Source: a virus
Reading direction: 5' to 3' (one strand)
DNA: 46,513 nucleotides
Virus record (IMG/VR): IMGVR_UViG_3300009081_000740
Span: 1-46,513 of that record
Shown: positions 1 to 44,363 of the stretch, piece by piece
Layout: each line of letters starts with the position of its first letter
How positions within the stretch are numbered: position 1 is the first letter of the stretch
Position numbers and translations under genes: made by a program
Notes under the pieces: model-generated
Told to the model about the DNA's origin: nothing
The model's database searches: none
What the model saw: only the letters and a program-made list of their open reading frames with translations

Positions 1-447
1 AGTTATGATGGTTCAGGTCATTTTCGGAGAGTTTTTAGAAATTCAAAACAATCAACAAAACTTGAAGTTGAAAAATCAATTGATGTAATGGTAAAAAATA
101 AAATACCATTAAAAATAAGTTATACAATACATAAAGGAAATTATAACAACTTTTTATATGATATGGTTTATATCTTAGAAAGGTGGGGTAAAGATATTTT
201 AGCAATAAAGTTATCTCCATTCAAGAAAGAATTGGAAGATAATTTTGGTATTAATCCAATAGATAAACTGGGACTATATGCTAATAGATTATATGCAAAA
301 TATAAGGTACCAATATGTAATTTTTCTTGTAATGTATGCAAGAAATGTGATAAAAGTGAGTTTATAGGAAATGCATATTTTTCACCAAAAGGTGATAATA
401 TAAAATATGAAGAATCTACCACAAGGAAGAATTTTGATAAATGGTAA
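1..447 (+). CDS. Radical SAM protein, C-terminal part (5' truncated by window edge)
   Basis: The reading frame is open from base 1, so the start lies outside the window. The first visible residues (SYDGSGHFRR, then a hydrophobic strand ending in HKGNYN) match the late strands of a radical SAM barrel, where an S-x-D-G turn is followed by an I/V-rich strand and an N. Near the end is a Cys cluster C-x3-C-x2-C-x2-C (CNFSCNVCKKC), which could bind an auxiliary Fe-S cluster as in SPASM or twitch C-termini. The spacing of its first three Cys oddly copies the core radical SAM motif. The N-terminal half with the expected core CxxxCxxC is not in view, so the family is inferred. The stop overlaps the ATG of the next radical SAM gene by 7 bases, which suggests translational coupling. 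Confidence 0.65.
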   Translation, partial: SYDGSGHFRRVFRNSKQSTKLEVEKSIDVMVKNKIPLKISYTIHKGNYNNFLYDMVYILERWGKDILAIKLSPFKKELEDNFGINPIDKLGLYANRLYAKYKVPICNFSCNVCKKCDKSEFIGNAYFSPKGDNIKYEESTTRKNFDKW

Positions 448-1454
448 GAGAAGATTTAGAATTAGTTGCATTTGGTGATATGGATAAATTTAACAGAGAG
501 AATGTAAAACTGTTCTGGGAACCTACACAGGTATGTAACTTCACTTGTTATTATTGTTATTATAAAACAATAAAATATCCATATCATCCAGAAAATATTG
601 ATATTGAATCAGCAATAAAGTTCATAAAAGAGATTCAAAAAGTAAAGAATGTTATTAGTATCAATATGAATGCTGCTGAACCAACATTGGTAAAAGATAT
701 TGATGTCATAGTAAAAAGAATAAAAGATTCAATGATAAGTTGTAAATCATTTAGAATGTATTCAAATATAAGTGCCAATATAGATTTATATAGAAGAATA
801 ATTAATACATTTGTAGGAAGTGATATTAATTTTGTTTTGTTTCCATCGTTTCATAACGCCTGTATAGACATTGACATTTTTATGAGTAAGATAAAAACTC
901 TAAAAGATGAATATAAAAATAATAGTAATATATTAATTGATAGTATTGATTTTATGTTAGAGGATGATAATTGTTATTCACTGGCTTCATATACATATAA
1001 TAAGTATCCTGGTATAAAATTCTCTATGAGACCTATTAGAGAAAAGAAAGTGGTATTAGATAGTAGAAATCAATTTTATCCTGATATTTACACAACTAAA
1101 GCAAATGTTGTTTCTATATATAAAGATAAAGATGGTGAATATCTTTACGAATATTTTTATCCGCATAAACTTCCACATATACCAATATTTAAAAATTGGA
1201 TATGTCAATCTTGGGAAAATATGATTTATATAGGGTCAAAAGGCTTTCTAAAATCATGTACTTTGGAAAATGATGATCTAACAATGGATATAAAAAGTAA
1301 TACAATAATAAAAAGATTGATGGATAAAAAAAGAAAAATATGTAACTGTAAGAGTTGTTATTGTGATTGGGATATACCAAAATATAAGATAACTGAATAT
1401 AACTGGCTAAAAGAATGGACAAAAGAAGATATACTGAAATTAAGAAAGTTGTAA
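441..1454 (+). CDS. Radical SAM enzyme with altered GGEP motif (337 aa)
   Basis: Radical SAM enzymes use a [4Fe-4S] cluster and S-adenosylmethionine to make a 5'-deoxyadenosyl radical. The cluster motif is C32-x3-C36-x2-C39 (CNFTCYYC). The SAM-binding GGEP motif reads AAEP (NAAEPTL), an unusual replacement of both glycines. The C-terminus carries more Cys (NWICQSW, then CNCKSCYCDW), likely an auxiliary cluster. Length and Cys pattern match the product of 4483-5496, also 337 aa, and both are followed by paralogous GT-like genes, so this is one half of a duplicated two-gene unit. The substrate is unknown. Start ATG overlaps the upstream stop. Confidence 0.85.
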   Translation: MVREDLELVAFGDMDKFNRENVKLFWEPTQVCNFTCYYCYYKTIKYPYHPENIDIESAIKFIKEIQKVKNVISINMNAAEPTLVKDIDVIVKRIKDSMISCKSFRMYSNISANIDLYRRIINTFVGSDINFVLFPSFHNACIDIDIFMSKIKTLKDEYKNNSNILIDSIDFMLEDDNCYSLASYTYNKYPGIKFSMRPIREKKVVLDSRNQFYPDIYTTKANVVSIYKDKDGEYLYEYFYPHKLPHIPIFKNWICQSWENMIYIGSKGFLKSCTLENDDLTMDIKSNTIIKRLMDKKRKICNCKSCYCDWDIPKYKITEYNWLKEWTKEDILKLRKL

Positions 1455-2239
1455 TATTTTACAACTGGTTAAATAATATAAACGGTGCCTTAATAGATGC
1501 ATTTGAATATTATATATCAATATTGGAAAAAACACCGGTACATTTTTTGATAATAAACCGAATTAATAAAAAGATTGATAATATAATTCAAGCATTTGAA
1601 AATAGATATGATTTGGATGATATAAACTGGAAAGAAAACATAATAACAATAAGTTTACCAAAACTTATAAGGTTTTCTTTTCAGACCTCATTGGTAGTTG
1701 ATTATTCAACCATATTCAAAACAAAAGGACTTTTAAGGTCAGATAGAATAATAGTAATTTCTGACTATCATACAGATGATAAAGACCATATGTATGATAA
1801 ATTAAAACAAAATGTTGAATATTATGGTGAAATGCCATTTGTATATAAAGACTACGACTATAATATGAAGTTTCTATTTCATAGATTTAAAAAATTAAAA
1901 AGTGTTAAAAACAATATATACATCAACAGTCCTTTCAATGAGGATAAAAGTTTTGTTAAGGATTTAAAATTAAATAAAAATGTGATTTTTAAATCACCAT
2001 ATCATTTAGACAATTTATTTGAACAATTTGATACATATCTATATTATCATGCAAATAAATGGTTTGACCCACACCCACGATTATTTCATGAATGTCATTT
2101 CTATAACAAAAGAATAATATATATCAATAATTACGGAGTTTTAGATGGTGGTTATTATAGATATATGGACTTAATGAAAAATGGTCTGAATAATAGATAT
2201 TTAACAGAAGATGATGAGATAGTAAAGGAATTTTTATGA
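1415..2239 (+). CDS. Putative GT-B-like glycosyltransferase, copy 1 of a paralogous pair
   Basis: A 274-aa protein without an obvious catalytic signature. It is clearly related to the product of 5483-6334: both share an FEYxIxxL segment near the N-terminus, an ExRYDL segment near residue 65-70, and a C-terminal block F-[DN]-T-Y-x-Y followed by PR-[LM]-x-x-E and K-x-I-I-Y-I-N. A late PR..E..GK.I..I pattern resembles the donor-binding half of GT-B glycosyltransferases, so that is my best guess, but the fold is inferred. The ATG lies 40 bases inside the upstream radical SAM gene. No better in-frame start is visible downstream. The stop overlaps the next ATG (ATGA). Confidence 0.55.
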   Translation: MDKRRYTEIKKVVIFYNWLNNINGALIDAFEYYISILEKTPVHFLIINRINKKIDNIIQAFENRYDLDDINWKENIITISLPKLIRFSFQTSLVVDYSTIFKTKGLLRSDRIIVISDYHTDDKDHMYDKLKQNVEYYGEMPFVYKDYDYNMKFLFHRFKKLKSVKNNIYINSPFNEDKSFVKDLKLNKNVIFKSPYHLDNLFEQFDTYLYYHANKWFDPHPRLFHECHFYNKRIIYINNYGVLDGGYYRYMDLMKNGLNNRYLTEDDEIVKEFL

Positions 2240-2799
2240 AAGAAGTATTAATGATACATGATGTTAATGAAAATATATTAAACTTACCATTAGAGGATTA
2301 TATTTTAACATTTGATGATGGTTTGTATAGTCAGTTTTATTATTGGCCATTGATAAGAAAGATTGATACTGAAAAGATATTTTTTATAACATGTTGGTAC
2401 ACCTCTAATTATTCTATTGAAAGACCTGTATTTAATGGTAAATATTATAAATTTATGAACTGTGTTGATGCAAAACAGGATTTTGAAAAATCTGGTGATA
2501 AATCCCAATATATGTCAATATGTGAAATATATAAGATATATTCAGAAGGTGGCATAATAGGTGGTCATAGTTATTTTCATCAGAGAAATTATCCAAAAAG
2601 TATAGTAGAAACATATTTTCGGTTTAAATATGATACAGAAAAAATGATGAAGTGGTTTGAAGAAAAATTAATGATAAGACCAATTCATTATTGTTTTCCT
2701 TTCAATAAAGAAAAAATGTTGATGAGAGAAATTTTAAAAAAGTATGGATTTTCAAAATTTTATGGTAGTGAAAGGATACCAGTTGAGTCATTATTATGA
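2236..2799 (+). CDS. NodB-type polysaccharide deacetylase (CE4)
   Basis: The NodB/carbohydrate esterase 4 family removes N- or O-acetyl groups from glycans with a divalent metal. The three landmarks are present: motif 1 TFDDG at residues 25-29 (D27 as likely base, D28 as metal ligand), motif 2 H111-S-Y-F-H115 (metal-binding HSxxH), and a motif-3-like CFPFN around 153-157. At 187 aa it is about the size of a bare NodB domain. It shows no signal peptide, so it likely acts in the cytoplasm on a sugar or glycolipid intermediate. It overlaps both neighbours by ATGA junctions and sits between the first GT-like gene and two tandem radical SAM genes, which links it to the same pathway. Confidence 0.82.
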   Translation: MKEVLMIHDVNENILNLPLEDYILTFDDGLYSQFYYWPLIRKIDTEKIFFITCWYTSNYSIERPVFNGKYYKFMNCVDAKQDFEKSGDKSQYMSICEIYKIYSEGGIIGGHSYFHQRNYPKSIVETYFRFKYDTEKMMKWFEEKLMIRPIHYCFPFNKEKMLMREILKKYGFSKFYGSERIPVESLL

Positions 2800-3614
2800 A
2801 TTATTTAACTTTGTTTCTTACAGAACAATGTAATAGAAAATGTGAGTATTGTGATATAGCAAGAATAAAAAAACAAAAAAGTATAAATATATTTCTTATT
2901 AATAAGTTCATACCTATAATAAAAGAATCAAAATGGAACAATATTGTATTAACGGGTGGTGAACCTACATTAGTAAAGGAAGATGTTTTAGATTATATAA
3001 TCAATGAGTTAGGTGATAAATTTTTAAAAGTTAATACTAATGGTCTTTGGATTAAAAAAGGTTATTTTGAGAAGTATTATGATAAAGTAGATAAAATACA
3101 ATTACATCCTGTTAGTGAGATAAATGAATTTTATGATAATATAATAGATGATAAAATAATCTATCATTTTCCAGTACATAAAAGAAATATCATATATCTA
3201 AGGAACTTTCTTAAAAGAAATAAAGACATTAAAATAAGATTGGCACCATATGATGAAAAATACATAAATAACGATTTTTCTTTAACTACAATGGATTTTA
3301 TTGAAATATATGATATTATAAAGAATTTTAAAAACATAACAGATGATACAAAAATACTTTTTAAAAACCTATCAAAAAATACAAATTATAATAGGTTAAA
3401 AGAATGTTGTTTTTATCCTTCCATAGATTTTGTGAATGGTCGTATTAAGAAATGCATAAAAAGTCACACATTATCTGACTGGTTTGAGTTGACAGAGGAA
3501 AATTTTAATAATATGAAAAATCTAAAATATACAAATAATGATATATGTAATAATTGTCATTTATTTATTAGAGATTATGAAAAATTGATAAGGATGTTGA
3601 TATGTTCGGATTAG
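2796..3614 (+). CDS. Radical SAM enzyme (272 aa), tandem paralogue 1
   Basis: Core cluster motif C12-x3-C16-x2-C19 (CNRKCEYC) lies very near the N-terminus, and TGGEP is at residues 53-57. The frame then has VNTNG plus a KKGYFEKYYDK stretch also found in the next gene (KMGYYKKYYDK), so the two are tandem paralogues. The C-terminal half holds CC (about residue 207), C (about 223), and C-x2-C (DICNNCH), consistent with one auxiliary Fe-S cluster in a short twitch-like domain. It starts in an ATGA overlap with the deacetylase gene and its end overlaps the next gene by 13 bases. The substrate is unknown. Confidence 0.85.
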   Translation: MNYLTLFLTEQCNRKCEYCDIARIKKQKSINIFLINKFIPIIKESKWNNIVLTGGEPTLVKEDVLDYIINELGDKFLKVNTNGLWIKKGYFEKYYDKVDKIQLHPVSEINEFYDNIIDDKIIYHFPVHKRNIIYLRNFLKRNKDIKIRLAPYDEKYINNDFSLTTMDFIEIYDIIKNFKNITDDTKILFKNLSKNTNYNRLKECCFYPSIDFVNGRIKKCIKSHTLSDWFELTEENFNNMKNLKYTNNDICNNCHLFIRDYEKLIRMLICSD

Positions 3615-4486
3615 AAGATAAGTTATCAGCGGTTAGATTTTCAATATTTATTACAGAAGTTTGTAATTTATCATGTGAATATTGCGATATACCATTACAA
3701 GAAAAAAGATTAGATTGTAATAAAGAATTATTATTGAAATATCTACCTGTGTTAGATACTTATGATTTTGAATGTTATACTTTAACAGGTGGAGAACCAG
3801 GTTTATCATCATGTATTGATGATTTTTTCAATATTGTAACCAAACCAGTAAAAGTTAATACTAATGGTGTATTTTTTAAAATGGGTTATTATAAAAAATA
3901 TTATGATAAAATTCAAGAGGTAGGTTATCATGCTATAAAAAATCCAGGTGAACCAATACCAGATTCACCATTACTAAAGGAAGAAAAAGTTACATTATAT
4001 ATACCTTTTGATAATTACAACTGGATATATATCCCCCAAATGGTAAAAGATAATCAAGATATTAGATTTAATTTTATACCATATATTAGAAAGAAGAAAG
4101 GTGATAGTAATATAAGAACCCTTACATTGGATAACATGAGAGAGTTATATAAAAGAATATGTATATATAACAACACACAATCAAGTGGATTGGCAAGTTT
4201 AATAAATGATTTGGACCATTCAAAATTAGAAATGTATAGAAAGTTCTGTCAAAACTCAAATACAAGATATTTGTTTGATTTTGTTAAGGGTCATATATAT
4301 AGATGTGCAAAGAGTAGAGTTCATAACAAAAGGGTTGAAATGAACGACGAGAATATTGAAAAAATAAAGACATTTACATTATTTGAAAAGGATGATATAA
4401 TGGACGAAGCATGTGAAGATTGTTATTATTTTACATTCTTTCTTAAATATGCAATGAGAAATGGGATATTAAAAAATAAACAATGA
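3602..4486 (+). CDS. Radical SAM enzyme (294 aa), tandem paralogue 2
   Basis: Core motif C21-x3-C25-x2-C28 (CNLSCEYC) and TGGEP at 62-66 are intact. The CEYCDI and VNTNG contexts match the upstream gene, showing tandem duplication followed by divergence. The C-terminal Cys residues (KFCQNS, YRCAKS and EACEDCYY with C-x2-C) fit an auxiliary cluster. The ATG lies inside the end of the previous gene, and the stop overlaps the next ATG (ATGA), so translation is probably coupled through the whole cassette. The two tandem copies may have taken on different substrates or may work as a pair. Sequence alone cannot separate these. Confidence 0.85.
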   Translation: MFGLEDKLSAVRFSIFITEVCNLSCEYCDIPLQEKRLDCNKELLLKYLPVLDTYDFECYTLTGGEPGLSSCIDDFFNIVTKPVKVNTNGVFFKMGYYKKYYDKIQEVGYHAIKNPGEPIPDSPLLKEEKVTLYIPFDNYNWIYIPQMVKDNQDIRFNFIPYIRKKKGDSNIRTLTLDNMRELYKRICIYNNTQSSGLASLINDLDHSKLEMYRKFCQNSNTRYLFDFVKGHIYRCAKSRVHNKRVEMNDENIEKIKTFTLFEKDDIMDEACEDCYYFTFFLKYAMRNGILKNKQ

Positions 4487-5496
4487 AAGATATAGTTTTT
4501 TCTGGTTCATTAAAGAACTTTGTTGAAAATGATATATTACAAGTCTCCTGGAATCTATTTGAGGAGTGTAATTATAATTGTTATTATTGTGGTACAAAAC
4601 AAGGAAGATATTGTAAAGATGCTGGGAATTATCTAACACCTGATGGAAAGTGTAATAGTTGGGATATGGATAAAAATCTCATAGAAAATGTAATAACAGG
4701 TATAGCAGAAGAAAAACATAAGAAAATAGATTTTACAATATCAGGTGGTGAACCAAGTATTCTAAAAGAGGATACATTTTTATTTCTATTGAATCAAATG
4801 AAAGATAAACTTTCAGATTCACTTATAACAATTAGATATATGACAAATTTATCTAATGATGTATCATATTATAAAAACATTTGGTCAATTCTCAAAGAAA
4901 AGAATATATTATTATGTACCACAATACATTATCTAATGGGATTAAAAACTTTTGAGAAAAAGATTAATAAGTTGATTAATGAACCAATTATAATAGATTT
5001 GAGAGTACCAATATCTTGTAAGTATTTAACAGAATCCCTTAAAAGATATAATTATTTAAAAAAATTAACGGGTGATAATATCTTTGTAATACCAAAGTAT
5101 ATTATGGAGTATGAGTGTGGTATTGATAATACAGTATTGAAATGGTTATTAAATGAGAATGAAAAAATTGTAAAAAAACAACCAGATATGATGACATTTG
5201 ATACTGTATTTTTTGATGGTATAAATTTCACTTTAGAAAAACATAACAGGGATATTTATTCACAATACTATAAACAAAAAATAAAATGGGTTTGTGATTT
5301 AAGTAAAAACAAATTTATTGATTTTAAAGGTAGAACCTGGAAATGTATTAATGATTCTAATCAAAATAAATTTAGTAAAAGAGATAGAGTTATATGTTCA
5401 AATTCAATGTGTTCATGTGGTCAGTATATTCCTAAGATGAATTTAAAATATTTCGGTAATTCCAATTTAATAAAAAATATGTATGATGGAAGTTGA
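4483..5496 (+). CDS. Radical SAM enzyme (337 aa), partner of second GT-like gene
   Basis: Core motif C29-x3-C33-x2-C36 (CNYNCYYC) and an intact SGGEP. A C-terminal Cys set (WVCDLS, WKCIND, then C-x4-C-x-C in ICSNSMCSC) suggests an auxiliary cluster. It has the same length and the same late Cys layout as the product of 441-1454. In both, a tryptophan-rich segment precedes the cluster motif (VSWNLFEEC here, LFWEPTQVC there). Both are followed directly by members of one GT-like family, so the pair was duplicated as a unit. Unlike the first copy, this one keeps the usual glycines of GGEP. Its end overlaps the next gene by 14 bases. Confidence 0.85.
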   Translation: MKDIVFSGSLKNFVENDILQVSWNLFEECNYNCYYCGTKQGRYCKDAGNYLTPDGKCNSWDMDKNLIENVITGIAEEKHKKIDFTISGGEPSILKEDTFLFLLNQMKDKLSDSLITIRYMTNLSNDVSYYKNIWSILKEKNILLCTTIHYLMGLKTFEKKINKLINEPIIIDLRVPISCKYLTESLKRYNYLKKLTGDNIFVIPKYIMEYECGIDNTVLKWLLNENEKIVKKQPDMMTFDTVFFDGINFTLEKHNRDIYSQYYKQKIKWVCDLSKNKFIDFKGRTWKCINDSNQNKFSKRDRVICSNSMCSCGQYIPKMNLKYFGNSNLIKNMYDGS

Positions 5497-6334
5497 TATA
5501 TTACACCACTGTAGTTCTTTTCATCCATTTAATGGTAATATATTTTATCACTTTGAGTATTTTATATTCTTATTAAAACGGGGTGTGGATGTAAGATTGG
5601 TTTATACACCTGGTTATGATATTGAATATATCATATCTGTAATGGAAGATAGATATGACTTGAAAGGTTTAAGTTATAGAAATAGAATATTCAATGATGG
5701 TATAACAAGAACGTCAAATGTCATAACAAATACAAAGGTTTTATATGATGTAAAGGGTGAAATAAAAGCAGATAAAATTCACTTAGTTAATACTTGGGCA
5801 TCTTATTATTATAAAGATGATATTGGAAAATACAAACAAGATAAAAATATAATTGAGTATAATGAATGTCCTCTTATAGGTGATGTAAATTATTTAAGAC
5901 CAATATATTTTGATTTATTGAAAAAACCAAATATAAGTGAAGATAGAGTTTATCTACATTTATCAGGTGTTAGAAAGATAAATTTCAGGGAATATGTAAA
6001 ATATGTCCTACCGATTATAAAAGGTAGAAAGGTATTGGTATCTTATCCTGAATCCCAGAAAGATGAATTTTTTTATTTGAAAACCTCCAATGTTGAAAGT
6101 TATATAAGTCATGTACCAAATTTATTTGAAAAATTCAACACTTATTTTTATATACTTCTACATGGTAAAGATTATAGTCCAAGAATGTTGATTGAATCCA
6201 CATATCTGGGTAAAGAAATAATCTATATTAATAGGACACAAAATTTATCAAATAGATATAAAGATTGTTTGTGTAAAGAAATAGAAAAATATAGAATGAG
6301 TGGAAATGATAAATTATTAGGGTGTTTTTTATGA
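5483..6334 (+). CDS. Putative GT-B-like glycosyltransferase, copy 2
   Basis: A 283-aa paralogue of the product of 1415-2239, with shared blocks FEYFIFLL, MEDRYDL, F-N-T-Y-F-Y, PRMLIE and K-E-I-I-Y-I-N. The C-terminal PR..E...GK.I.YIN pattern is reminiscent of GT-B donor-binding regions. No confident catalytic residue can be named, so the enzymatic call is tentative. Two in-frame ATGs (5483 and 5486) are possible starts, both inside the previous gene. The stop forms an ATGA overlap with the next radical SAM gene at 6331. Consistent pairing of this family with a radical SAM enzyme suggests the two act on one product. Confidence 0.55.
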   Translation: MMEVDILHHCSSFHPFNGNIFYHFEYFIFLLKRGVDVRLVYTPGYDIEYIISVMEDRYDLKGLSYRNRIFNDGITRTSNVITNTKVLYDVKGEIKADKIHLVNTWASYYYKDDIGKYKQDKNIIEYNECPLIGDVNYLRPIYFDLLKKPNISEDRVYLHLSGVRKINFREYVKYVLPIIKGRKVLVSYPESQKDEFFYLKTSNVESYISHVPNLFEKFNTYFYILLHGKDYSPRMLIESTYLGKEIIYINRTQNLSNRYKDCLCKEIEKYRMSGNDKLLGCFL

Positions 6335-7242
6335 TAGAAAGAATAGAAGGTGAAAAAGATTATAGTCCTTATATAATATGGGAAATAATTGAAAAATGTA
6401 ATTTTAATTGTGGTTATTGTACTTTTGTAAAAAATCCAAATTTTAATTGTATCTCAAATATAAAAAGGGGTATTGATACAATAACATCATCAACTGAATA
6501 TCCTATAATAGATTTTACTGGTGGTGAACCAACATTACATCCTGATTTAAGTGAGATTTTAGATTATTCAACTGAAAAAAGTAAAAATGATGTTTATGTA
6601 ACAACAAATGCATCAATGAATGTTAATGAGTTAAATAGGGTATTGGATAATGTAAAACATAAACAAAAATTAGGTTTTTATTTAACATATCATCACAAAC
6701 AAACAAATATATCACAGTATATTGAATTTGCAAATATGTTAAAAGATAATAACTGTAAAGTCTTTATTAAATTTTTATGTGATCCAAAGGATTTTAATGG
6801 TATAAAAAAATCATATGAGTATATAAAGAATATTCCTTACGATAGATTTTTTATGAAATATAGGTGGAATCATAGAAAAGAAGGTGTATATACAAATGAA
6901 TATTATGAATGGATTATTCAAAATTCAAAATCAAATGATATATATTTCAATGTTAGTTTTAATAATGAAAAAACTAAAAAATATTATTATGACTCATTAG
7001 TATATGAGGGTTTAAACAATTTTCAAGGTATGTATTGTAAGTGTTTATATTTATTATATATAAACATATTAGGAAGAATATATCCAAGTTGTTTAAAAGA
7101 AATGATGAGTTCATCAATAGGAAATTTATATACTTTACCAAATTTAAATTATATATACAATGATAAAGATAGAAAAATAAGATGTATAAAAGATGAATGT
7201 ACAGAAGTGATAAACAATCCTGATAAGTGGAGAAATAAATGA
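6331..7242 (+). CDS. Radical SAM enzyme with SPASM-like tail (303 aa)
   Basis: Core motif C23-x3-C27-x2-C30 (CNFNCGYC), TGGEPTLHP, and a TTNAS strand are typical of the radical SAM core. A C-x-C, then IYPSC and C-x4-C near the end (CKC, PSCLKE, RCIKDEC), resembles the single auxiliary cluster of SPASM/twitch enzymes, in which a Y/I-P-x-C turn is common. I chose the ATG at 6331, which overlaps the upstream stop as ATGA and has an AGGG site 7-10 bases before it. A GTG at 6322 in the same frame would add three residues. The stop overlaps the next ATG. Confidence 0.85.
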   Translation: MIERIEGEKDYSPYIIWEIIEKCNFNCGYCTFVKNPNFNCISNIKRGIDTITSSTEYPIIDFTGGEPTLHPDLSEILDYSTEKSKNDVYVTTNASMNVNELNRVLDNVKHKQKLGFYLTYHHKQTNISQYIEFANMLKDNNCKVFIKFLCDPKDFNGIKKSYEYIKNIPYDRFFMKYRWNHRKEGVYTNEYYEWIIQNSKSNDIYFNVSFNNEKTKKYYYDSLVYEGLNNFQGMYCKCLYLLYINILGRIYPSCLKEMMSSSIGNLYTLPNLNYIYNDKDRKIRCIKDECTEVINNPDKWRNK

Positions 7243-8528
7243 AATCAATTTTTGTTGTTATGAGGTCAGAAGGAGATAATGAGAATCCATTAACAGCATA
7301 TTCAATTGCGAAATCTATGATAAAAGGACTTGATTTGGCAATTTTGAATTTTCCAAGAATTGATAAAAAAGATGTGATATTTACTAATAGAACCGATTAT
7401 ACGGAGCCTTATATCTATGGTCAAACCATTGATGATGTAGTTGATAAAAAAGCAATACTAAAATTAATTGAAAATTATAATAACAATAGAGATTTTCTAA
7501 GGAATATAAAAATACCTAAGTTTAGAAGTAAATTTATAGATTCTATTTATAAAGAGGCTTGTCGTGTTTCAAAATATGATGTTGTATTTTTTTCTATATT
7601 TAGGTATCATTTTCTTTATCATTTATTATTGGCTGCTATAGCAAAATCATTAAATAATAAATTGAAGGTTGTTGTGGGTGGACCACAAATTATATTGTCT
7701 TCCTTATCAAGGGATATACTATTAAACTGTCCATTTGTTGATAAAATACTTGTCGGTAATGTTGAAGATTGTATAGATGAATATAATAAACCAGAAAAAT
7801 TGTCATTTGTTAAGAACAAAAACATTATAAATTCTATAATACCTAATTATTATCCTTTTACAAAATTTTTTAATAATACAGTTAATCTATTTACAAGTAG
7901 AAATTGTAGTTATATTTGTAAGTATTGTCCAAATGGTAATATGAATTTAAAATATTCTAAAATAGATTTGAATACTGTTGATATATGGTTAAATTATTAT
8001 AAAAAATGTAATATATATTTTACAGACCCATATATAAATCTAATAAGAAAAAGATTTGATGAAATATTAGATATGTTAAAAAAGACAAATTTTCCTGACA
8101 AATATACTATGTGGTTACATTCCAAGAAATTGAGTTTTCTTCAAATAGATAAATTAATAGAACTACAACCTAAAAGGTTATGGATGTCATATGATGTTGT
8201 GGATGTTGGATTAAGTAAATCAATGGCAAGACCAATTGATAAGTATATTGATGAAAAAATAGTTACTATAACAGATGGTGATATAAATTTGGTAGTTCCT
8301 TTTATAATTGGACTACCAGGTGAAACAAATTATACATTTGATAAAACATTAGAAAAAATAGTGCAGTTAAAAGATATATGTAACAAAAAGTTACAAATTG
8401 AAATTTTTCCTTACTTACATAATGTTGGTTCACCTCTATTTGATAGTGACCCAAATTATAAAAATGGAATATCCGAAACTATAATGAAAAAAAGATTGGT
8501 TAAGATAAAAAAATTAATCGGTAAATAA
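7239..8528 (+). CDS. Radical SAM protein with B12-binding-like N-terminal domain (429 aa)
   Basis: The N-terminal ~200 residues look like the Rossmann-type cobalamin-binding domain of B12-radical SAM proteins: a DVVFFSIFRYHF strand and helix, then VVVGGP, then the VDKILVGNVED strand and turn. The usual DxHxxG cobalamin ligand motif is not evident, so base-off histidine ligation is not supported. The radical SAM core follows with CSYICKYC (C-x3-C-x2-C, about residue 225), and FIIGLPGET is the helix-capping motif typical of MiaB/B12-type radical SAM enzymes. Such proteins catalyse methylations, ring contractions and C-C bond formation. It is the last gene of the cassette, starting in an ATGA overlap. 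The next transcription unit has its own promoter. Confidence 0.82.
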   Translation: MKSIFVVMRSEGDNENPLTAYSIAKSMIKGLDLAILNFPRIDKKDVIFTNRTDYTEPYIYGQTIDDVVDKKAILKLIENYNNNRDFLRNIKIPKFRSKFIDSIYKEACRVSKYDVVFFSIFRYHFLYHLLLAAIAKSLNNKLKVVVGGPQIILSSLSRDILLNCPFVDKILVGNVEDCIDEYNKPEKLSFVKNKNIINSIIPNYYPFTKFFNNTVNLFTSRNCSYICKYCPNGNMNLKYSKIDLNTVDIWLNYYKKCNIYFTDPYINLIRKRFDEILDMLKKTNFPDKYTMWLHSKKLSFLQIDKLIELQPKRLWMSYDVVDVGLSKSMARPIDKYIDEKIVTITDGDINLVVPFIIGLPGETNYTFDKTLEKIVQLKDICNKKLQIEIFPYLHNVGSPLFDSDPNYKNGISETIMKKRLVKIKKLIGK

Positions 8529-19283: not shown

Positions 19284-19604
19284 TTAATCATCATCTTCTA
19301 CTTCAAAATCATCATCGTCGTCATCATCATCACCACAGTCACAATCTCCACCACAATCGCAACCATCATCTTGTGAAATGCAGCCTTGATTTTGACTTCT
19401 ACCTGTATCCCACACACCACCATCTGTTTTCCAGGAATTTCCATCATCTTTCGCATTCCAGATATTACAACTTTTTTCAACTTCGGATATCTTCAAAGTT
19501 TTTCTAACAGGAGGAGCATCCATAGAGTCGTCTTGATTGTCAAATATGTCATTGCCACCCAAAATATCACTAACATCGCCTAAAATATCATCAAACATTC
19601 CCAT
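19284..19604 (-). CDS. Acidic, Cys-rich tail protein of unknown function beginning MGMFDDILG (106 aa)
   Basis: The N-terminus shares M-x-[LM]-F-D-D-I-L-G with the protein at 18241. The middle contains a CNIWNAKDDG and a GVWDTG segment. The end is extreme: a C-D-C-G-G-D-C-D-C-G cluster followed by a run of eight Asp and a further acidic tail. The Cys cluster could bind metal; the polyacidic tail could mimic DNA or bind basic proteins. AAAGGA lies 8 bases before the ATG. It is the last gene of the minus-strand run, and its start overlaps the epimerase gene by 14 bases. Confidence 0.65.
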   Translation of the reverse strand: MGMFDDILGDVSDILGGNDIFDNQDDSMDAPPVRKTLKISEVEKSCNIWNAKDDGNSWKTDGGVWDTGRSQNQGCISQDDGCDCGGDCDCGDDDDDDDDFEVEDDD

Positions 19605-20406
19605 TTAAGTATTCCTTTCTTATTTGTTCTTCAAGGTTAATTTTACTTTTAAACGAAATCAGATTTTTAGCATCGTAAATATCTGCTACGTTCATCATTG
19701 TACCTATCATATCACTTTTGGGATCAGATGTAAACTTGTGATCAAAAATTTTCGCTAATTCAAAAATACTTGTTGGTTCACCGGTTCCTATATCAATCGG
19801 TTTTTCTAATTTTATATTCCAGGCAAGACAATTAAATATCGCTGCACATATATCACTTATATGTATAAAATCTCTTTTTTGTAGACCATTACCATTTATA
19901 ACTATTTCTTTGTTCTCTCTTTTTGCTTTTACAAATTTAGAAATCACTGTTGATTTTGTTTCAAGATAATCAATACCACCATATATGTTGGTAAATCTCA
20001 AAATATTTATTTTACTTCTTGGTGATCTATTTATTTTTTCTGCTTCACATTCTGCCATATACTTTGTTAATGCATAGTAATTGGCTTTTGGTGTTTTTGC
20101 GGCCTGAGAAGATGCGAATATAACTGGAATTTTACTTTGTTCCGCACTACTAAATATTCTCATTGTTGTTGATATATTATCATTATATGCTTGTTTAAGG
20201 TCATCAGAACAAGCCTTTATACCAGATAGGGCCGCTAAATGTACAATGCACTCTATTTCATTTTTTAGTATAAAATTATAATCAATTCTATCAGCTTCAA
20301 TTCCTATTTTTCTATCAACCTCTACAATTTCATAATAATTTTTTGTTAAAAATGGTATTAAATTTTTACCTATATATCCTTCACTACCTGTTACAGCTAT
20401 TCTCAT
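19591..20406 (-). CDS. NAD-dependent sugar-nucleotide epimerase/dehydratase (GalE-like SDR)
   Basis: Extended SDR fold: NAD-binding G7-x2-G10-Y-I-G13, a VHLAALSG strand at 55-62, a Ser pair at 99-100 (ASSQAAK), catalytic Y111-x3-K115 (NYYALTK), an RFTNIYGG substrate loop and a GNGLQKRDFIHISDI segment typical of GalE/UDP-sugar epimerases. At 271 aa it is shorter than most GalE proteins (about 330), mainly at the C-terminus. It probably changes the stereochemistry of a sugar nucleotide used by the neighbouring glycosyltransferases. It is linked to the upstream methyltransferase by an ATGA-type overlap. Confidence 0.83.
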   Translation of the reverse strand: MRIAVTGSEGYIGKNLIPFLTKNYYEIVEVDRKIGIEADRIDYNFILKNEIECIVHLAALSGIKACSDDLKQAYNDNISTTMRIFSSAEQSKIPVIFASSQAAKTPKANYYALTKYMAECEAEKINRSPRSKINILRFTNIYGGIDYLETKSTVISKFVKAKRENKEIVINGNGLQKRDFIHISDICAAIFNCLAWNIKLEKPIDIGTGEPTSIFELAKIFDHKFTSDPKSDMIGTMMNVADIYDAKNLISFKSKINLEEQIRKEYLNGNV

Positions 20407-21080
20407 TACATTTTCTCCTTTAAGAGTTTCTTTATAAAAAACACATATTCTTTTGGATACTCTTTATTCCAATATCCATTCCATATTATTTTTATCTCAT
20501 TTCTATGTTCTATTATAAAATCGGAAAATATACCTGAATTTTTAATATATGAATAATGTTTCCGAGGATTACCTGGAACATCATTTAATGTTATCATATA
20601 ACCACCTTCTCTTATAGCGTTCCACATATTTTCAAGTGATAACTTATAATCAGGTGTGAGACCCAGTACATGATGTGAGAAAACATAATCCCAATCTTTA
20701 TAATCCCAATGTTCATCACATAGATTTCCCCACTCCACTGGTCTACCTAAATTTTTAGCATAGTTTACATAATTATGAGATATTTCTAAACCAAGTGAAA
20801 ATATTCCATTCATTTGTAGCCAGTTACAAAATTGTCCATCTTTTGTTCCTATATCTAAAACTTTAAATTTTTCTTTTTTAAATGGGTCAATTTTTGCAAG
20901 TTTTAAAGACCATTCCCAAAGATTCTTACATCTATCAAATGATTCCCAATCTCTTATAGGGTCACTCTCTAAAACATTTTCAATATATGTTCCTTCATAA
21001 TCCAATTTTTTATTAAACTGATTTTCTTTTTTTATAATTTCACAATCAGTTATTTCCTTCATTTCTTTCCACTTAGTCAT
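20406..21080 (-). CDS. Class I SAM-dependent methyltransferase (224 aa)
   Basis: Motif I is V74-L-D-I-G-T-K-D-G-Q-F84, the glycine-rich SAM-binding loop. An acidic residue at the end of strand 2 follows (LGLEIS), and the DYVFSHHVLG segment corresponds to motif IV. The family looks like the FkbM/Methyltransf_11-type enzymes common in glycan loci. The substrate is unknown, but its place between GalE-like and GT2 genes suggests sugar or glycan methylation. Confidence 0.78.
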   Translation of the reverse strand: MTKWKEMKEITDCEIIKKENQFNKKLDYEGTYIENVLESDPIRDWESFDRCKNLWEWSLKLAKIDPFKKEKFKVLDIGTKDGQFCNWLQMNGIFSLGLEISHNYVNYAKNLGRPVEWGNLCDEHWDYKDWDYVFSHHVLGLTPDYKLSLENMWNAIREGGYMITLNDVPGNPRKHYSYIKNSGIFSDFIIEHRNEIKIIWNGYWNKEYPKEYVFFIKKLLKEKM

Positions 21081-21082
21081 TA

Positions 21083-21430
21083 TTATAACCTTGTTCCAAA
21101 CTCATTAACATATCCTTCTTTATTTCCAGTGTTAAACCCTTCTTCAAATCCGAGACTATATCCTTCTCTATGTCCAATCTCAAATCCATTGTCGTATCCA
21201 TTATTATACCCATTTTGATATGCTTCATTATGTTCTCTATAATCATCTTCAATAAATTCTTGACCATTTTTATTTGATAATGCTACTTTAAAACCTCTTT
21301 TCTCACCATTATCAAATCCAATATCATAACAGGTATCAATAACATCTAATATAAAATCCATATCTTGTGTAGGATTTTCTTCAAAATATTTTTTTATATC
21401 ATCTATATTAACATTTTTTAAATCCAACAT
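21083..21430 (-). CDS. Glycine-every-fourth-residue repeat protein (115 aa)
   Basis: The C-terminal half has nine glycines exactly four residues apart (G74 to G106, mostly followed by Tyr or Phe); a shorter copy of the same pattern lies at G38, G42 and G46. Such GX3 repeats are known from the deca-GX3 motif of Yae1/Lto1-type proteins, where they form packed helices that bind a partner. Whether this protein is related is unknown; composition may simply produce the pattern. It sits between a methyltransferase and a GT2 gene, one gene away from a radical SAM gene. Its Cys-poor, Asn/Asp/Glu-rich composition argues for a soluble protein. Confidence 0.65.
   Translation of the reverse strand: MLDLKNVNIDDIKKYFEENPTQDMDFILDVIDTCYDIGFDNGEKRGFKVALSNKNGQEFIEDDYREHNEAYQNGYNNGYDNGFEIGHREGYSLGFEEGFNTGNKEGYVNEFGTRL
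21113..21211 (-). repeat. Coding 12-base (GX3) tandem repeat region
   Basis: The part of the gene encoding residues 74-106 is built from degenerate 12-base units, each with one Gly codon, in eight consecutive intervals. The units differ at most positions, so it is an old or selected repeat rather than a fresh slippage array. Confidence 0.6.
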
Positions 21431-21460
21431 TTTTACACTCCATTTTTTATTTTTCTTATA

Positions 21461-22219
21461 TTATAATATATTTTCAAATTCTTTTGGTATTCTTTCCAGT
21501 TTTGTTTTCTCTGCACCAAAGTGTATATGATAATTGGGTTCATAAAAATAAGACTTAAAACTTTCTTCATCCGTAAAAATTGGAAATATTTTATTCTCTA
21601 TTCCTGACAAATCATGTAATAAATATTTTCTTTTACAATTAGTATAATCAACTCTATGTAAATGACAAAGAATTAAATTTTTATCTGGTTTTTCATGTTC
21701 TTTACCTTTTGTATAATGTCTTCCTCTGGACCAATTTGTTTCTTTTGTTACTATTGACTCTTTATCATATGTATTAAGTCTTATCCACCAATTTCTTTGT
21801 TTTATCAATATAGGTTTATTCCAATCTAAATGATCTTCGTTCAGCATGTGCATTACTTCATATCCTGTGCATCTTGTAATTTCATTACTTTTATTGTTTT
21901 CTATGTAATCTCTCAAATTTCCATGTTTTGTAAATATAAATTCATCAGCGTCCACGGATACAACATAATTATACTCTTTCAATAATTCAATATGTTTTTT
22001 AAGCATTATTTCGTATATCCAATCATGATTACAAAACTTCACATTTTCTCCAACTATTTCAACATTACATTTCAAATCTTTTGTACTTCCATCTGTACTA
22101 CAATGGTCTAATACATATAGATTTTCCATACCAAATAATTCTGAGTAATACTTTATCCATAATGGTAAAAAATGATATTCATTTCTAAATAAACCATAAA
22201 CTGCACAAAATTTCTTCAT
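21461..22219 (-). CDS. GT2-type (GT-A) glycosyltransferase (252 aa)
   Basis: The N-terminus (RNEYHFLPLWIKYY, then VLDHCSTDGS) has the typical strand-turn of the GT2 subfamily often annotated as Glyco_tranf_2_4, which reads N-E-x-x-x-L-x-E-W...H. The D90-A-D92 motif (VSVDADEF) binds the nucleotide-sugar with a metal ion. Downstream are HYTKGKEH and CHLHRVDY, usual for the acceptor half of this subfamily. It is in the minus-strand island and starts in an ATGA-type overlap with the radical SAM gene upstream. Confidence 0.83.
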   Translation of the reverse strand: MKKFCAVYGLFRNEYHFLPLWIKYYSELFGMENLYVLDHCSTDGSTKDLKCNVEIVGENVKFCNHDWIYEIMLKKHIELLKEYNYVVSVDADEFIFTKHGNLRDYIENNKSNEITRCTGYEVMHMLNEDHLDWNKPILIKQRNWWIRLNTYDKESIVTKETNWSRGRHYTKGKEHEKPDKNLILCHLHRVDYTNCKRKYLLHDLSGIENKIFPIFTDEESFKSYFYEPNYHIHFGAEKTKLERIPKEFENIL

Positions 22220-23217
22220 ATAAAATCCTTATGCTCCATATCATCTTCAAATTCATTTTTAATTTTTCCATATTTTTTCCAATCATCTAACATATTGATA
22301 TTATTCGTAAAAACACATCCTCTACAATCAATTTTTATATTATGTTTCATTTTAATTTTACCATCCAAAAAATCAAGTATTTCTGATGCTTTACATATCT
22401 GGTATTTTCTATCAAACATTTCAACACCATCATTTAATACAATACTATCACACGGATATACCGTACCGTTATCTATTTCACTTAAATATGGTCTGAAATA
22501 TGCTTGGTGACATATATCGGATAATGGCGTATTATGTATTTTATATTGACAAAAAAATATTTCATCATCAATAGATTTCAATATTTTATAAATTCTTTTA
22601 TATTCTGATTTCAACTTATCCTGTTCATATAAACAATCTGGTAATATTCTCACATACTTAGCTCCAAGATTATGTGCAAATTTTGCTATTTTCTTCATCT
22701 CTTCCAAAGTTTGACCTGTATATACAAAAGAACAGCCTAATGTACCTGATATTTTGGGAATACTGATAATTTTTTCCCAATCCTTAAATATATTTATACT
22801 TATTCTTACCCAAGAAAACTCATTCCAACAATCAACATTATTGGCTCTTGTTCCATTGGTTATTAAAGCAACTGAAAGTTGCTTATGTTTCAACCATTTG
22901 ACAAGTTCATTAAAATATGGATATAATGTTGGTTCACCGCCACCAGTAAGAATAACAGCTTTCAATCCACGGTGACATAACTTTTCAACATAATCCATTA
23001 TAGTGTGAAATTCTATTCTGAAATGTTTATCACGTTTCTTTACACTACAATAACTACAATTCAAATTACATGAACCTTCTGGTGATATATGTGTTGATAT
23101 TATTGAATTATTAGTACCTTTTCGGTAGTTATTCATTTTATCCATATGTTTCCAAAATTTTACACCTGTTGATGTAAATTTATGTTCGTTTGTTGTTTTC
23201 AAGTACAAAGAATCCAT
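22216..23217 (-). CDS. Radical SAM enzyme (333 aa) in the glycosyltransferase island
   Basis: Core cluster C50-x3-C54-x2-C57 (SCNLNCSYC), the canonical TGGGEPTL SAM motif, and an ALITNGT strand. The C-terminal region has DICHQ, YPCDS, QICKAS, and C-x2-C (IDCRGCV), consistent with a SPASM/twitch auxiliary cluster. A GGGAG SD 7-8 bases before the ATG supports this start, although it overlaps the methyltransferase by 38 bases. It is the eighth radical SAM gene in the window but the only one on this strand, and its motifs are the most canonical. Confidence 0.88.
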   Translation of the reverse strand: MDSLYLKTTNEHKFTSTGVKFWKHMDKMNNYRKGTNNSIISTHISPEGSCNLNCSYCSVKKRDKHFRIEFHTIMDYVEKLCHRGLKAVILTGGGEPTLYPYFNELVKWLKHKQLSVALITNGTRANNVDCWNEFSWVRISINIFKDWEKIISIPKISGTLGCSFVYTGQTLEEMKKIAKFAHNLGAKYVRILPDCLYEQDKLKSEYKRIYKILKSIDDEIFFCQYKIHNTPLSDICHQAYFRPYLSEIDNGTVYPCDSIVLNDGVEMFDRKYQICKASEILDFLDGKIKMKHNIKIDCRGCVFTNNINMLDDWKKYGKIKNEFEDDMEHKDFI

Positions 23218-23833
23218 TTCCTTTCTCCCATTCTATCCAATCCTGTTTTACATGTTTCATAAGATATTCTGCTTTTTTTACTTTGAAACCATTTTTTTCA
23301 AATTTATCTTTCCACCATTCTAATGATTCTCGTATTATATGTGTTACATCTTCTTCATGTGATGTTATTATATATTTTTCACCATCACCCAATGGTATAG
23401 AACAGAATACATTCATACCTATTATATTTAATGTTTTGATAACATTATCTATTTTTTCATATTCTATGTGTTCCAAAACATCTTTACATATCACCCAATT
23501 ATAAATATCGTTATTATGTGATATAAAAGTTTGATATTTTTCTATAGAATTAATCAAAAAAACATATTCTTTTATATCATCTGGTGCAGAATTTATTGCA
23601 TATTCACTAATATCAACACCATATGCTTTTCTATGTAATAATCTGAATGCTTTTACCATATATCCTTTTGCACAACCAAAATCAAGTATGGTATCATCTT
23701 CTTTTATACCAAGTTGTTCTATTAATGTTGCACAGAAAGGAATAGTTAATTCTGGAATCCATCTATAATTTTCATATAAACTTATTTTTGTTTTTATACC
23801 GTTCTCAAAATAATTTATATCATACTCTTGCAT
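23180..23833 (-). CDS. Class I SAM-dependent methyltransferase (217 aa)
   Basis: Motif I is I49-L-D-F-G-C-A-K-G57; strand 2 reads AYGVDIS, and the later DVLEHIEY matches motif IV of the Methyltransf_11/23 superfamily. The first 25 residues, with YFENG and Y-x-N-Y-R-W, resemble the N-terminal cap of sugar/quinone C- or O-methyltransferases. It is the first gene behind the minus-strand promoter at 23862-23890 and overlaps the next (radical SAM) gene, so the two are probably co-expressed. SD GGAGAG lies about 10 bases before the ATG. Confidence 0.83.
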   Translation of the reverse strand: MQEYDINYFENGIKTKISLYENYRWIPELTIPFCATLIEQLGIKEDDTILDFGCAKGYMVKAFRLLHRKAYGVDISEYAINSAPDDIKEYVFLINSIEKYQTFISHNNDIYNWVICKDVLEHIEYEKIDNVIKTLNIIGMNVFCSIPLGDGEKYIITSHEEDVTHIIRESLEWWKDKFEKNGFKVKKAEYLMKHVKQDWIEWEKGNGFFVLENNKRT

Positions 23834-23861
23834 AAAATATATCTCTCCATAATTTTCTTAT

Positions 23862-23890
23862 ATTATATCATATAAAATTTTAATTGTAAA
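23862..23890 (-). promoter_or_regulatory. Sigma70-like promoter on the minus strand
   Basis: Read on the minus strand: TTTACA (23890 to 23885), a 17-base spacer, and TATAAT (23867 to 23862). Again TG stands directly before the -35 hexamer. It lies in the 59-base gap upstream of the methyltransferase and would give the 23833-19284 genes their own transcript. Confidence 0.75.
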
Positions 23891-23892
23891 CA

Positions 23893-24735
23893 TTAATTAT
23901 CAGGATTTGTTAGGTCATAAAATTCAACCCAAGAATATCCAAGGGCTTTGGTTTTCTGTGAAAATCCCATTTCACCATAAACAATAGCATCAAGTTCATA
24001 ACTTTGACCGAGTGCATATGTAAAGCAACCAAATGTTTTATCCATTTTTTCAAGGAAAGATTTTCTCATAAAATAATAAGATGGTTGTACATGTTTAACA
24101 TCCTCAAATTTTGCTTTAAATGGTTTACCATTTATATCTCTCCAAACATCAATACTTAATGGACCATAATATTCATATGGGTCAAATTTAAATTTTCTTT
24201 CATATGCAGATACAAATGCGGCATTTTTATTAGATATTAATTTTTCTTTTAATATATCATACCAATTTTCTAATCTAAAATGCCAGTCACATTCTTTTGA
24301 TACCCAATATTCACAATTTACATTCTTCCAACGAGTCCAGATATCCCATAAAGAACCCCATTGCCAACCAATATTTGGTCGTTGATAAATTATTATTTCA
24401 ACTTTAGAATCATTAAGTTTTTGTCTATCTAAACTTTTTAGATAATTTATACTTTGATCATCCATTAAATGTCCATTAACAGATATAACAAGTTTCATTG
24501 AAAAATCCGTTTTAATAGAGTGGGAAGACTTATCAAAAAAATCTATATTTCTTTTTAAATTTTCCATTTCTTGTTTATTATCTGTAGGCTCTCTACATCC
24601 ATTATCCATTCTTCTTAATCCATCATTTTCGAGAAAAACTGTAAGGTTCAAAATACAATCCGTTTTATCAAAATCTGGATATTGTAATGGGTCAAAAATT
24701 CTAAGAATACCATGTTCTTTATTTCTTTTTATCAT
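23893..24735 (-). CDS. Putative glycosyltransferase, family A copy 1 (280 aa)
   Basis: Paralogue of the product of 25888-26685: both carry F-D-P-L near the N-terminus, an ISVNG strand, YQRPNIGWQWG (here) versus FQRPNVGWQWG (there), a C-[ED]-W/V acidic site, and a YGCFT[YF]ALG motif. A strand ending KECDW fits a GT-A DxD-like position, but the family itself is not one I can name. It is linked by ATGA to the family B gene upstream (24732). It is the last gene before the internal promoter. Confidence 0.6.
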   Translation of the reverse strand: MIKRNKEHGILRIFDPLQYPDFDKTDCILNLTVFLENDGLRRMDNGCREPTDNKQEMENLKRNIDFFDKSSHSIKTDFSMKLVISVNGHLMDDQSINYLKSLDRQKLNDSKVEIIIYQRPNIGWQWGSLWDIWTRWKNVNCEYWVSKECDWHFRLENWYDILKEKLISNKNAAFVSAYERKFKFDPYEYYGPLSIDVWRDINGKPFKAKFEDVKHVQPSYYFMRKSFLEKMDKTFGCFTYALGQSYELDAIVYGEMGFSQKTKALGYSWVEFYDLTNPDN

Positions 24736-25547
24736 ACTTTACCCAAATCCCCTCTTTGTGATGGTGTTTCTATATAAGGAACCCAAGGTGCCATATATGG
24801 TAAATCCATTGTTTGACTATTATGATTTCCACCAGGAACAAGTTGATTATTTTTTCTTTCTAATCTCCATCTTGCCATTCTCCAATCATTTCCAGTATGT
24901 CTTACATATCTAAAATCACCTGTTGGACCGTAGATATAGGCACCAATTTTTTCTTCACAATGTTGATTATTTTTTCTTTGTTCATGACTTCCAAAAACAT
25001 TTGTAAAATTGCCTTCTGGTCTTGTAATACTAAAACCACCAGTTCTTAGCATATTTTTTAATACAAAATCCCTTCTCCATATACCTGGGAGAAACGTCCA
25101 TCCATGATATATACAAACAGGCATACCACTAAAAAATCTTTGGTCTTGATTCATACCTGGAGATGAATTGACATTTCTTATTTTATTAAAGAAAATAAGG
25201 TTTATATTGGGATTATTATCCATAACCCATGTAATTTGATCTATATCAATAGGTCTTTCAAATATCCAATCTTCTTGAATATAAAAAATATAATCAGCGG
25301 TTAAAATATTCCTAAAATAATGAGTCAATGTTGAGCCTAAACCTATTGCGGGGTCATTTGTATTAACAGTTAAACCTTTACCTTCAAGATATTTTAAAAC
25401 TTCATTACTTTCATTTCTAAACACAAAATCTTCATGCACTATAAATTCAGGTCTTTCTCTAATTATACACATTCTATTAAATGAATTTAAGAAATATGGC
25501 CATAATTGAGGTCTACTTGAACTTGTAACCAATACTTGTAATTTCAT
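24732..25547 (-). CDS. Putative GT-A-like glycosyltransferase, family B copy 1 (271 aa)
   Basis: Begins with LVTSSSRPQLWPYF, an N-terminal strand like that of GT2-like enzymes (V-T-x-S-R-P). An IQEDWIFE segment may take the DxD role, and HxGWTFLPGIWR plus HTGNDWRMARW are strongly conserved with its paralogue at 30468-31301. ATG 25547 was chosen: its SD (AGGA, 8 bases) is good, and the resulting N-terminus aligns with the paralogue (M-[KI]-x-x-[VL]-x-V-T-S-S-S). An ATG nine bases upstream (25556) has no useful SD. Exact-match blocks of DNA shared with the paralogue suggest recent exchange. Confidence 0.65.
   Translation of the reverse strand: MKLQVLVTSSSRPQLWPYFLNSFNRMCIIRERPEFIVHEDFVFRNESNEVLKYLEGKGLTVNTNDPAIGLGSTLTHYFRNILTADYIFYIQEDWIFERPIDIDQITWVMDNNPNINLIFFNKIRNVNSSPGMNQDQRFFSGMPVCIYHGWTFLPGIWRRDFVLKNMLRTGGFSITRPEGNFTNVFGSHEQRKNNQHCEEKIGAYIYGPTGDFRYVRHTGNDWRMARWRLERKNNQLVPGGNHNSQTMDLPYMAPWVPYIETPSQRGDLGKV
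25387..25430. repeat. 44-base exact repeat, shared with 31144-31187
   Basis: Part of family B gene copy 1, identical base for base to 31144-31187 inside copy 2, including wobble positions, while flanking sequence differs. It encodes the conserved FRNESNEVLKYL region. Confidence 0.7.
25485..25529. repeat. 45-base exact repeat, shared with 31242-31286
   Basis: Near the 5' end of family B copy 1, identical base for base to 31242-31286 in copy 2. It encodes TSSSRPQLWPYFLN. Two exact blocks in otherwise diverged genes point to gene conversion. Confidence 0.7.
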
Positions 25548-25557
25548 TACACACATC

Positions 25558-27343: not shown

Positions 27344-27357
27344 ATTTTATTCCTCAC

Positions 27358-28191: not shown

Positions 28192-28201
28192 AATATATTT
28201 T

Positions 28202-31301: not shown

Positions 31302-31305
31302 ATAA

Positions 31306-32238: not shown

Positions 32239-32257
32239 TATACAAACACCTCTTTTT

Positions 32258-33463: not shown

Positions 33464-33468
33464 TTATT

Positions 33469-34635: not shown

Positions 34636-34654
34636 AATATACAAATTTCTCCTT

Positions 34655-44335: not shown

Positions 44336-44363
44336 TATTTTTCCCTTCACAAGTTCTAATCAT

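Follow-up and report, generated by a model that had tools for sequence, protein, structure and literature searches.

Organization of the cassette

The window analyzed here is a 46,513-nucleotide (46.5 kb) fragment with a GC content of 27%, the IMG/VR virus record IMGVR_UViG_3300009081_000740. Its first 8.5 kb (positions 1-8528) carry ten open reading frames (ORFs) on the + strand, termed g1 to g10. Seven encode radical S-adenosylmethionine (rSAM) proteins, two encode paralogous proteins resembling GT-B glycosyltransferases (GTs), and one encodes a NodB-type deacetylase. Elsewhere the window carries genes for UvsX, an SbcC-like exonuclease, a T4-type primase, ribonucleotide reductase, and a Mom-like protein. 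With these genes, among them T4-type replication genes, the record is viral and not the bacterial chromosome that the original prediction had named as a refuting outcome. The genes of the cassette are as follows.

1-447, + strand: g1, 3' part of a fam0 rSAM gene; fam0 proteins are about 270-400 amino acids long and accompany cysteine-array tail-fibre genes
441-1454, + strand: g2, rSAM with a C-terminal cysteine (twitch/SPASM-like) cluster; Pfam Radical_SAM, E 2.8e-8
1415-2239, + strand: g3, GT-B-like (weak assignment), family phrog_14526; PHROG E 8.6e-10
2236-2799, + strand: g4, NodB-type polysaccharide deacetylase; Pfam PF01522, E 5e-5; PHROG 26430
2796-3614, + strand: g5, rSAM; Pfam E 8e-10
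3602-4486, + strand: g6, rSAM, paralogue of g5 (30% identity)
4483-5496, + strand: g7, rSAM with a C-terminal cysteine cluster; Pfam E 3e-8; fam3 hidden Markov model (HMM), E 2.6e-11
5483-6334, + strand: g8, GT-B-like (weak assignment), paralogue of g3 (24%, E 6e-13); phrog_14526
6322-7242, + strand: g9, rSAM of QueE size; Pfam E 1e-8; fam3 HMM, E 3e-25; 33% identity to CPt10 gp089
7239-8528, + strand: g10, rSAM with a B12-binding domain, class B methylase-like; Radical_SAM and B12-binding matches both below the Pfam cut-off

Successive genes overlap by 7, 40, 4, 4, 13, 4, 14, 13, and 4 bases. The CxxxCxxC motif lies at the core position in six of the seven rSAM ORFs (g2, g5, g6, g7, g9, and g10). 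Pfam Radical_SAM matches five of these six with E-values of 2.5e-5 to 8e-10 and g10 with 1e-4, the scores of g6 and g10 falling below the curated cut-off. The rSAM and NodB calls are backed by Pfam, PHROGs, and NCBIfam. Coordinates, motifs, and Pfam thus agree with the original prediction of seven rSAM ORFs, one of them partial and six with intact cores. The seven do not stem from a single recent duplication: apart from g5 and g6, which are plainly paralogous, they show only distant relationships among themselves. Against the named NCBIfam rSAM families (PapB, SCIFF, QueE, viperin, MoaA, PhpK, and others), g1 to g10 all score far below cut-off. The identities QueE, viperin, and MoaA were rejected on these bit scores.

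The deacetylase call for g4 is borne out by intact NodB/CE4 metal-site motifs, TFDDG at position 25 and HSYFH (HxxxH) at position 111, together with the PF01522 match. The two GT-like genes stand on less firm ground. Their AlphaFold model is good (pLDDT 89.7, pTM 0.90) and its best neighbours in the PDB are GT-B transferases, but these matches are not significant (E at least 0.014, TM-score at most 0.49). Neither g3 nor g8 has a Pfam or NCBIfam match, and a PDB sequence search with the family profile returned none. With a closer subset of the family as query, two of ten loci, both distant (33%), lay in phages without an array or rSAM genes; membership of the GT-like family is thus not diagnostic by itself. 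In g10, a degenerate B12-binding domain precedes the rSAM domain; the best NCBIfam match is TIGR04479 (45 bits against a cut-off of 600), with a weak match to CysS. A tblastn search of g10 against named phages gave no match, nor did a viral scan with g9 as a single protein.

Both the Mom-like DNA modification protein (43529-44350, - strand; phrog_1384, E 8e-36) and the ribonucleotide reductase lie at the other end of the window. The latter, at 44918-46513 (- strand), is the C-terminal part of the large subunit, truncated at the window's right end; judged by eye, it resembles the class II, B12-dependent type.

A role of the cassette in DNA or nucleoside modification, through QueE-like steps, is very improbable. 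The generic QueE-like matches of g5, g6, and g9 and the presence of the Mom-like gene would fit it, yet those matches reach 32-41 bits against a cut-off of 260, and the partners QueC, QueD, and FolE are not in the operon.

A sister phage extends the locus upstream

The whole cassette is present, in identical order and at 72% DNA identity, in a 61-kb phage record (G001, IMGVR_UViG_3300040802_000030). Because the entire gene order is kept, the cassette is not a chance assembly. Its description as a single overlapping operon is upheld, with overlaps of 4-40 bases. Protein identities of 52-76% and dN/dS values of 0.13-0.46, indicative of purifying selection, mean that all ten genes have been retained as working proteins. 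The sister phage also completes g1: its full-length homologue has 269 amino acids, the core motif CNMSCDYC, and 58% identity to g1. The remnant in the window retains the C-terminal cysteine motif CNFSCNVCKKC, matches phrog_19488 ("radical SAM"), and is recognized by a fam0 HMM built without the window or its sister (E 1.9e-36).

The original prediction had proposed looking upstream of base 1. In the sister phage, this region holds, in order, tail-fibre-like genes, a fam1 gene, a small ORF, a fam2 gene, a cysteine-array protein, a gene for a small protein termed U5, two GT-like genes, a late sigma factor, and then g1 to g10. Here, fam1 is a PapB-like rSAM/SPASM protein and fam2 a second rSAM/SPASM protein. 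The array protein has 163 amino acids and ends in CVCNCNYACTCDCNYCTCNCANECSCQTYYY; its gene lies 3.3 kb upstream of g1, flanked by these rSAMs, which resemble maturases of ribosomally synthesized and post-translationally modified peptides (RiPPs). The earlier statement that no RiPP precursor is visible thus reflects the truncation of the window. The predicted structure of U5 has only weak viral neighbours and suggests no function.

Cysteine arrays at the ends of tail-fibre proteins

The array consists of the heptad C-T-C-[N/D]-C-N-[Y/F], present in 2-28 copies among 42 distinct proteins. A degenerate DNA pattern covering two heptads found 44 stretches in viral contigs, which fall into 26 DNA clusters, and a single contig among 84,980 prokaryote genomes. 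The sole prokaryote match is a 3-kb contig of a metagenome-assembled genome with a fam2 rSAM and a truncated g1-like rSAM ORF upstream. The motif is thus almost virus-specific.

Some arrays form the C-terminus of the protein; the others are followed immediately by SDxRLK, the S74 fibre chaperone's Ser-Lys motif. Pfam confirmed S74 (PF13884) in five of ten array proteins tested, and in several loci the remainder of S74 is apparently a separate small ORF, as judged by eye. S74 is an auto-cleaving chaperone; because the array precedes its Ser-Lys motif, the known biology of S74 would place the array at the mature C-terminus of the fibre. Several array proteins thus resemble phage tail fibres with the S74 endosialidase-type chaperone, as PF13884 directly follows the array in them.

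With regard to a leader or recognition element, we found no Pfam match for the S74-less array proteins, the small ORF, or U5, and made no search specific for RiPP recognition elements. A small ORF of about 100-180 amino acids lies between the rSAM genes in most loci (L007:12828-13208; L020:5112, L044:9139, L013:4928) and is a possible recognition or chaperone partner. A tblastn search of one array protein against named phages gave no match, possibly as a result of masking of the array by the low-complexity filter. Among open-licence papers, preprints excluded, none was found on the heptad (CTCNCNY and variants) or on rSAM enzymes in post-translational modification of tail fibres.

Two departures from the common pattern were observed. 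At L238:12564-13064, a fam1 locus carries CHSN/CHSD repeats (NCHSDCHSNCHSDC...) in place of the array, as a diverged cysteine array. Arrays of CPCNCNF or CTCDCNY occur in L039, L040, L042, and L061 (G017, G023-G025) on contigs without rSAM genes; these are either fragments or carry arrays that are used unmodified.

Association of rSAM genes with the array

We compared array loci with 80 control tail-fibre loci chosen by their S74 motif. Array loci contained 102 rSAM ORFs in 431 kb, while the controls contained none in 729 kb. On whole contigs with an array, 3-16 rSAMs were present in 14 of 14 members of one set and 12 of 17 of another, compared with any rSAM on 1 of 20 control tail-fibre contigs. 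Counted by cluster, with locus and contig data merged, rSAMs accompany 24 of 26 array clusters versus 1 of 20 controls (Fisher p 9e-10). Contig size partially confounds the contig comparison, as the controls include smaller contigs; the per-kb comparison is free of this effect.

Three rSAM families recur in array loci: fam0 (35 ORFs), fam1 (27), and fam2 (27), counts that include repeat copies of the same contigs. A tail-fibre protein with terminal heptads adjoins these families in the sister phage and in more than 20 unrelated phage clusters. A reciprocal search starting from fam1, in which the array motif was not used, recovered 16 further loci with an array, and other fam1 loci (L233, L238, L249, L246) have a diverged cysteine repeat. 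Similarly, of the 32 best viral relatives of fam0, 26 share their locus with an array; two of the exceptions are the Campylobacter phages CPt10 and CP220, in which the array is elsewhere in the genome. In most array loci the array gene lies beside fam0, fam1, or fam2, which agrees with the placement of a ribosomal precursor next to its maturase in a RiPP system. Both the association of rSAMs with the array and the homology of the families are strong.

Relationship to RiPP maturases

The closest solved structure to fam1 and fam2 is 5wgg, which we take to be CteB, the thioether maturase of SCIFF peptides; that to fam0 is SkfB, which forms a thioether in the sporulation killing factor. The fam1 match to 5wgg has an E-value of 1e-17, and fam1 aligns with PapB over its full length (147 bits). 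In the SPASM model TIGR04085, fam1 of the sister phage scores 39.5 bits, above the cut-off of 27, and fam2 scores 22.1, below it; against the named NCBIfam rSAM families, both are below cut-off.

Since relatives of thioether maturases lie next door to a cysteine-rich repeat, the simplest interpretation is that they cross-link the array. As in RiPP thioether maturation by SPASM rSAMs (PapB ranthipeptides, SCIFF/CteB, SkfB), the fam1 loci encode a cysteine-rich candidate substrate adjacent to the enzyme. They differ from these systems in that the candidate is a heptad array on a fibre instead of a short leader-core precursor, and in that the phage enzymes fall under all named-family cut-offs.

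Variable cassettes in other array phages

Other array phages carry cassettes related to that of the window. Three of its rSAMs, g2 (E 1e-16), g7, and g9, match fam3, the rSAMs of these downstream cassettes. An uninterrupted locus (L356, contig 3300033143_004799) begins with fam0, fam2, the array, a split S74, rSAMs, U5, U6, and an epimerase, and continues with a g3-like gene, a NodB gene, a GT-like gene, and four rSAMs resembling g5 and g6; a fam1 relative (L200) lies on the same contig. A second contig (L193/L194, 3300033146_002768) has 16 rSAMs and the same gene set plus two carbamoyltransferases. In these two independent phages, g1, g3, g4, g5, and g6 all have matches at 31-48%, with g5 homologues at 47-48% and g6 homologues at 31-32% in L193 and L356. 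Homologues of g3, 46-49% identical, lie downstream of cysteine arrays, and a g4-type NodB gene recurs beside a g3-like gene in L353, L356, and L193.

Further cassettes contain tryptophan-halogenase-family, transketolase-like, GT2, epimerase, and amidinotransferase-like genes, and a weak sulfotransferase match below cut-off. One tryptophan-halogenase-family gene (L192:1272-2540; PF04820, E 1e-64) lies next to transketolase-like genes in a phage tailoring cassette, and L195:1231-2481 belongs to the same family as judged by eye. By gene content, the module has a stable core and a tailoring set that varies between phages; the cassette is one part of this widespread, apparently undescribed module adjoining cysteine-array tail-fibre genes. 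"Tailoring", the word used in the original prediction, still best describes a cassette that mixes rSAMs with sugar-type enzymes; the unusual sugars, glycolipids, and nucleoside-like molecules suggested there stay candidate substrates.

These additional genes could also suit a secreted product, either a small molecule or a RiPP resembling an antibiotic, that is made from the array and released from the fibre or the lysate instead of serving as a virion part. The RiPP-maturase-like rSAMs, the repeat precursor, and the halogenase, carbamoyltransferase, and amidinotransferase-like genes of sister cassettes are in keeping with such a product. We nevertheless consider it improbable, as no protease or exporter was seen and the array occurs in fusion with proteins of the fibre type and with the S74 chaperone.

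Relationship to Campylobacter phages

Large rSAM sets have been described in phages before, contrary to the original prediction, which knew of no system with so many: CP220 and CPt10 encode 11 and 12 rSAM proteins, including an interchangeable cluster of about 10 kb with five rSAMs (Timms et al. 2010, PMC2853527). These authors noted a stable core and a variable set between the two phages, without reference to an array, and separately reported a 21-bp repeat inside CPT_0180/CPt10_1891 (PMC2853527). We find that this repeat encodes the heptad array. The array gene is present in 15 of 15 matched records of the CP220/CPt10 group, annotated as hypothetical or as a lyase, and a fam2 rSAM (CPt10_1931) lies four genes downstream of CPt10_1891. 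In our survey of open-licence literature, preprints excluded, no paper joined phage rSAM sets with the 21-bp repeat array.

CP220 and CPt10 (Firehammervirus), like the window phage, are T4-like phages with large rSAM sets. Their five-rSAM cluster lies beside the GT-like gp083, of the same family as g3 and g8, and they share a fam0 rSAM (gp102), a fam2 rSAM, and the array gene CPt10_1891 with the array module. Their rSAM cluster is only distantly related to that of the window, and has an amidinotransferase instead of the NodB and B12-rSAM genes.

Two observations concern the array gene in this group. In CP21 (NC_019507 / HE815464), the array protein at 74991-76589 is annotated as a "putative N-acetylneuraminate pyruvate lyase", probably a mis-annotation. 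In CPt10 (FN667789), the 21-bp repeat of CPt10_1891 (repeat region x, RRx) was among the regions tested by polymerase chain reaction, and length varied in six of seven regions within one plaque-purified stock (PMC2853527); array length may therefore vary too.

The authors of the CP220/CPt10 study proposed that such genes boost anaerobic host metabolism (PMC2853527). An auxiliary metabolic role for the present cassette is improbable: no metabolic-enzyme family match lies above cut-off, the genes are linked to fibre genes, and the expansion and turnover of paralogues are untypical of metabolic genes.

Proposed role in tail-fibre modification

We favour, with about even confidence, the reading that a phage module alters the tip of the tail fibre chemically and that the cassette forms the variable tailoring half of this module, lying downstream. 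In the core half, fam1 and fam2, with their SPASM-type cysteine clusters, and fam0 would act on the CTC[N/D]CN[Y/F] heptads with which the mature fibre protein would end, most likely forming thioether or other cysteine cross-links. In the tailoring half, g2 to g10, the rSAMs, GT-B-like proteins, and NodB enzyme would build or attach extra groups, probably sugar-derived, on the fibre or the array. Among these, g10 suggests a methyl group, while the deacetylase and the GT-like proteins suggest a sugar. Differences among cassettes would fit a surface on which selection favours receptor binding or the evasion of host defences.

The main competing explanation, which we regard as less likely than fibre-tip modification but clearly likelier than the other alternatives, is that the cassette makes or alters a glycan on the surface of the infected host (O-antigen or capsule) and blocks superinfection, its proximity to tail fibres reflecting a shared host-recognition island. 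The GT-like and NodB genes are compatible with this, and a parallel exists in pelagimyophages, where rSAM cassettes and glycosyltransferases in the host-recognition cluster were read as O-chain modification (PMC7029224). These phages resemble the present ones in carrying a variable island that combines tail fibres with glycosyltransferases and rSAM cassettes; the part of that report covered here mentions neither a cysteine array nor the rSAM trio. The host-glycan explanation leaves unexplained why three rSAM families track the array and why g3-g6 homologues recur in array loci, and no flippase, polymerase, or ligase genes were seen in the cassette.

Several points weigh against fibre-tip modification. 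The array protein is a putative virion component and a putative target of modification, and the GT-B assignment of g3 and g8 is weak. The window is cut at its left end and contains no array; of the two phages, the sister alone has one, and in it a sigma-factor gene separates the core half from the cassette. A long distance separates the array gene from the rSAM cluster in CP220 and CPt10. Five array contigs in two DNA clusters have no rSAM, so the array can exist without rSAMs unless these contigs are fragments. Finally, a second island of GT, methyltransferase, epimerase, and aminotransferase genes with one more rSAM in the window fits the host-glycan explanation equally well. This island (19591-34665, - strand), separate from the cassette, encodes GT2 and GT1/4 proteins, several SAM methyltransferases, a DegT aminotransferase, and two epimerases, and its rSAM lies at 22216-23217.

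The added context raises rather than lowers the interest of the cassette, whose substrate and purpose we infer as set out above. A broader proposal, to which we lean slightly less, is that in many unrelated phages, the cultured Campylobacter phages among them, cysteine-heptad fibre tips are cross-linked by a phage rSAM team and decorated by a fast-changing cassette, a RiPP-like system for a virion part that would yield a chemically diversified tip for receptor binding or shielding. Fibre-tip modification would give a testable function to the rSAM expansions of large phages, which have been known since 2010 and ascribed to host metabolism, and some Campylobacter phages that carry the array gene have been cultured. 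If it is true, RiPP-type radical chemistry serves phages in building a part of the virion, and the module would offer new enzymes for cross-linking and tailoring as well as a new origin of variation in host range.

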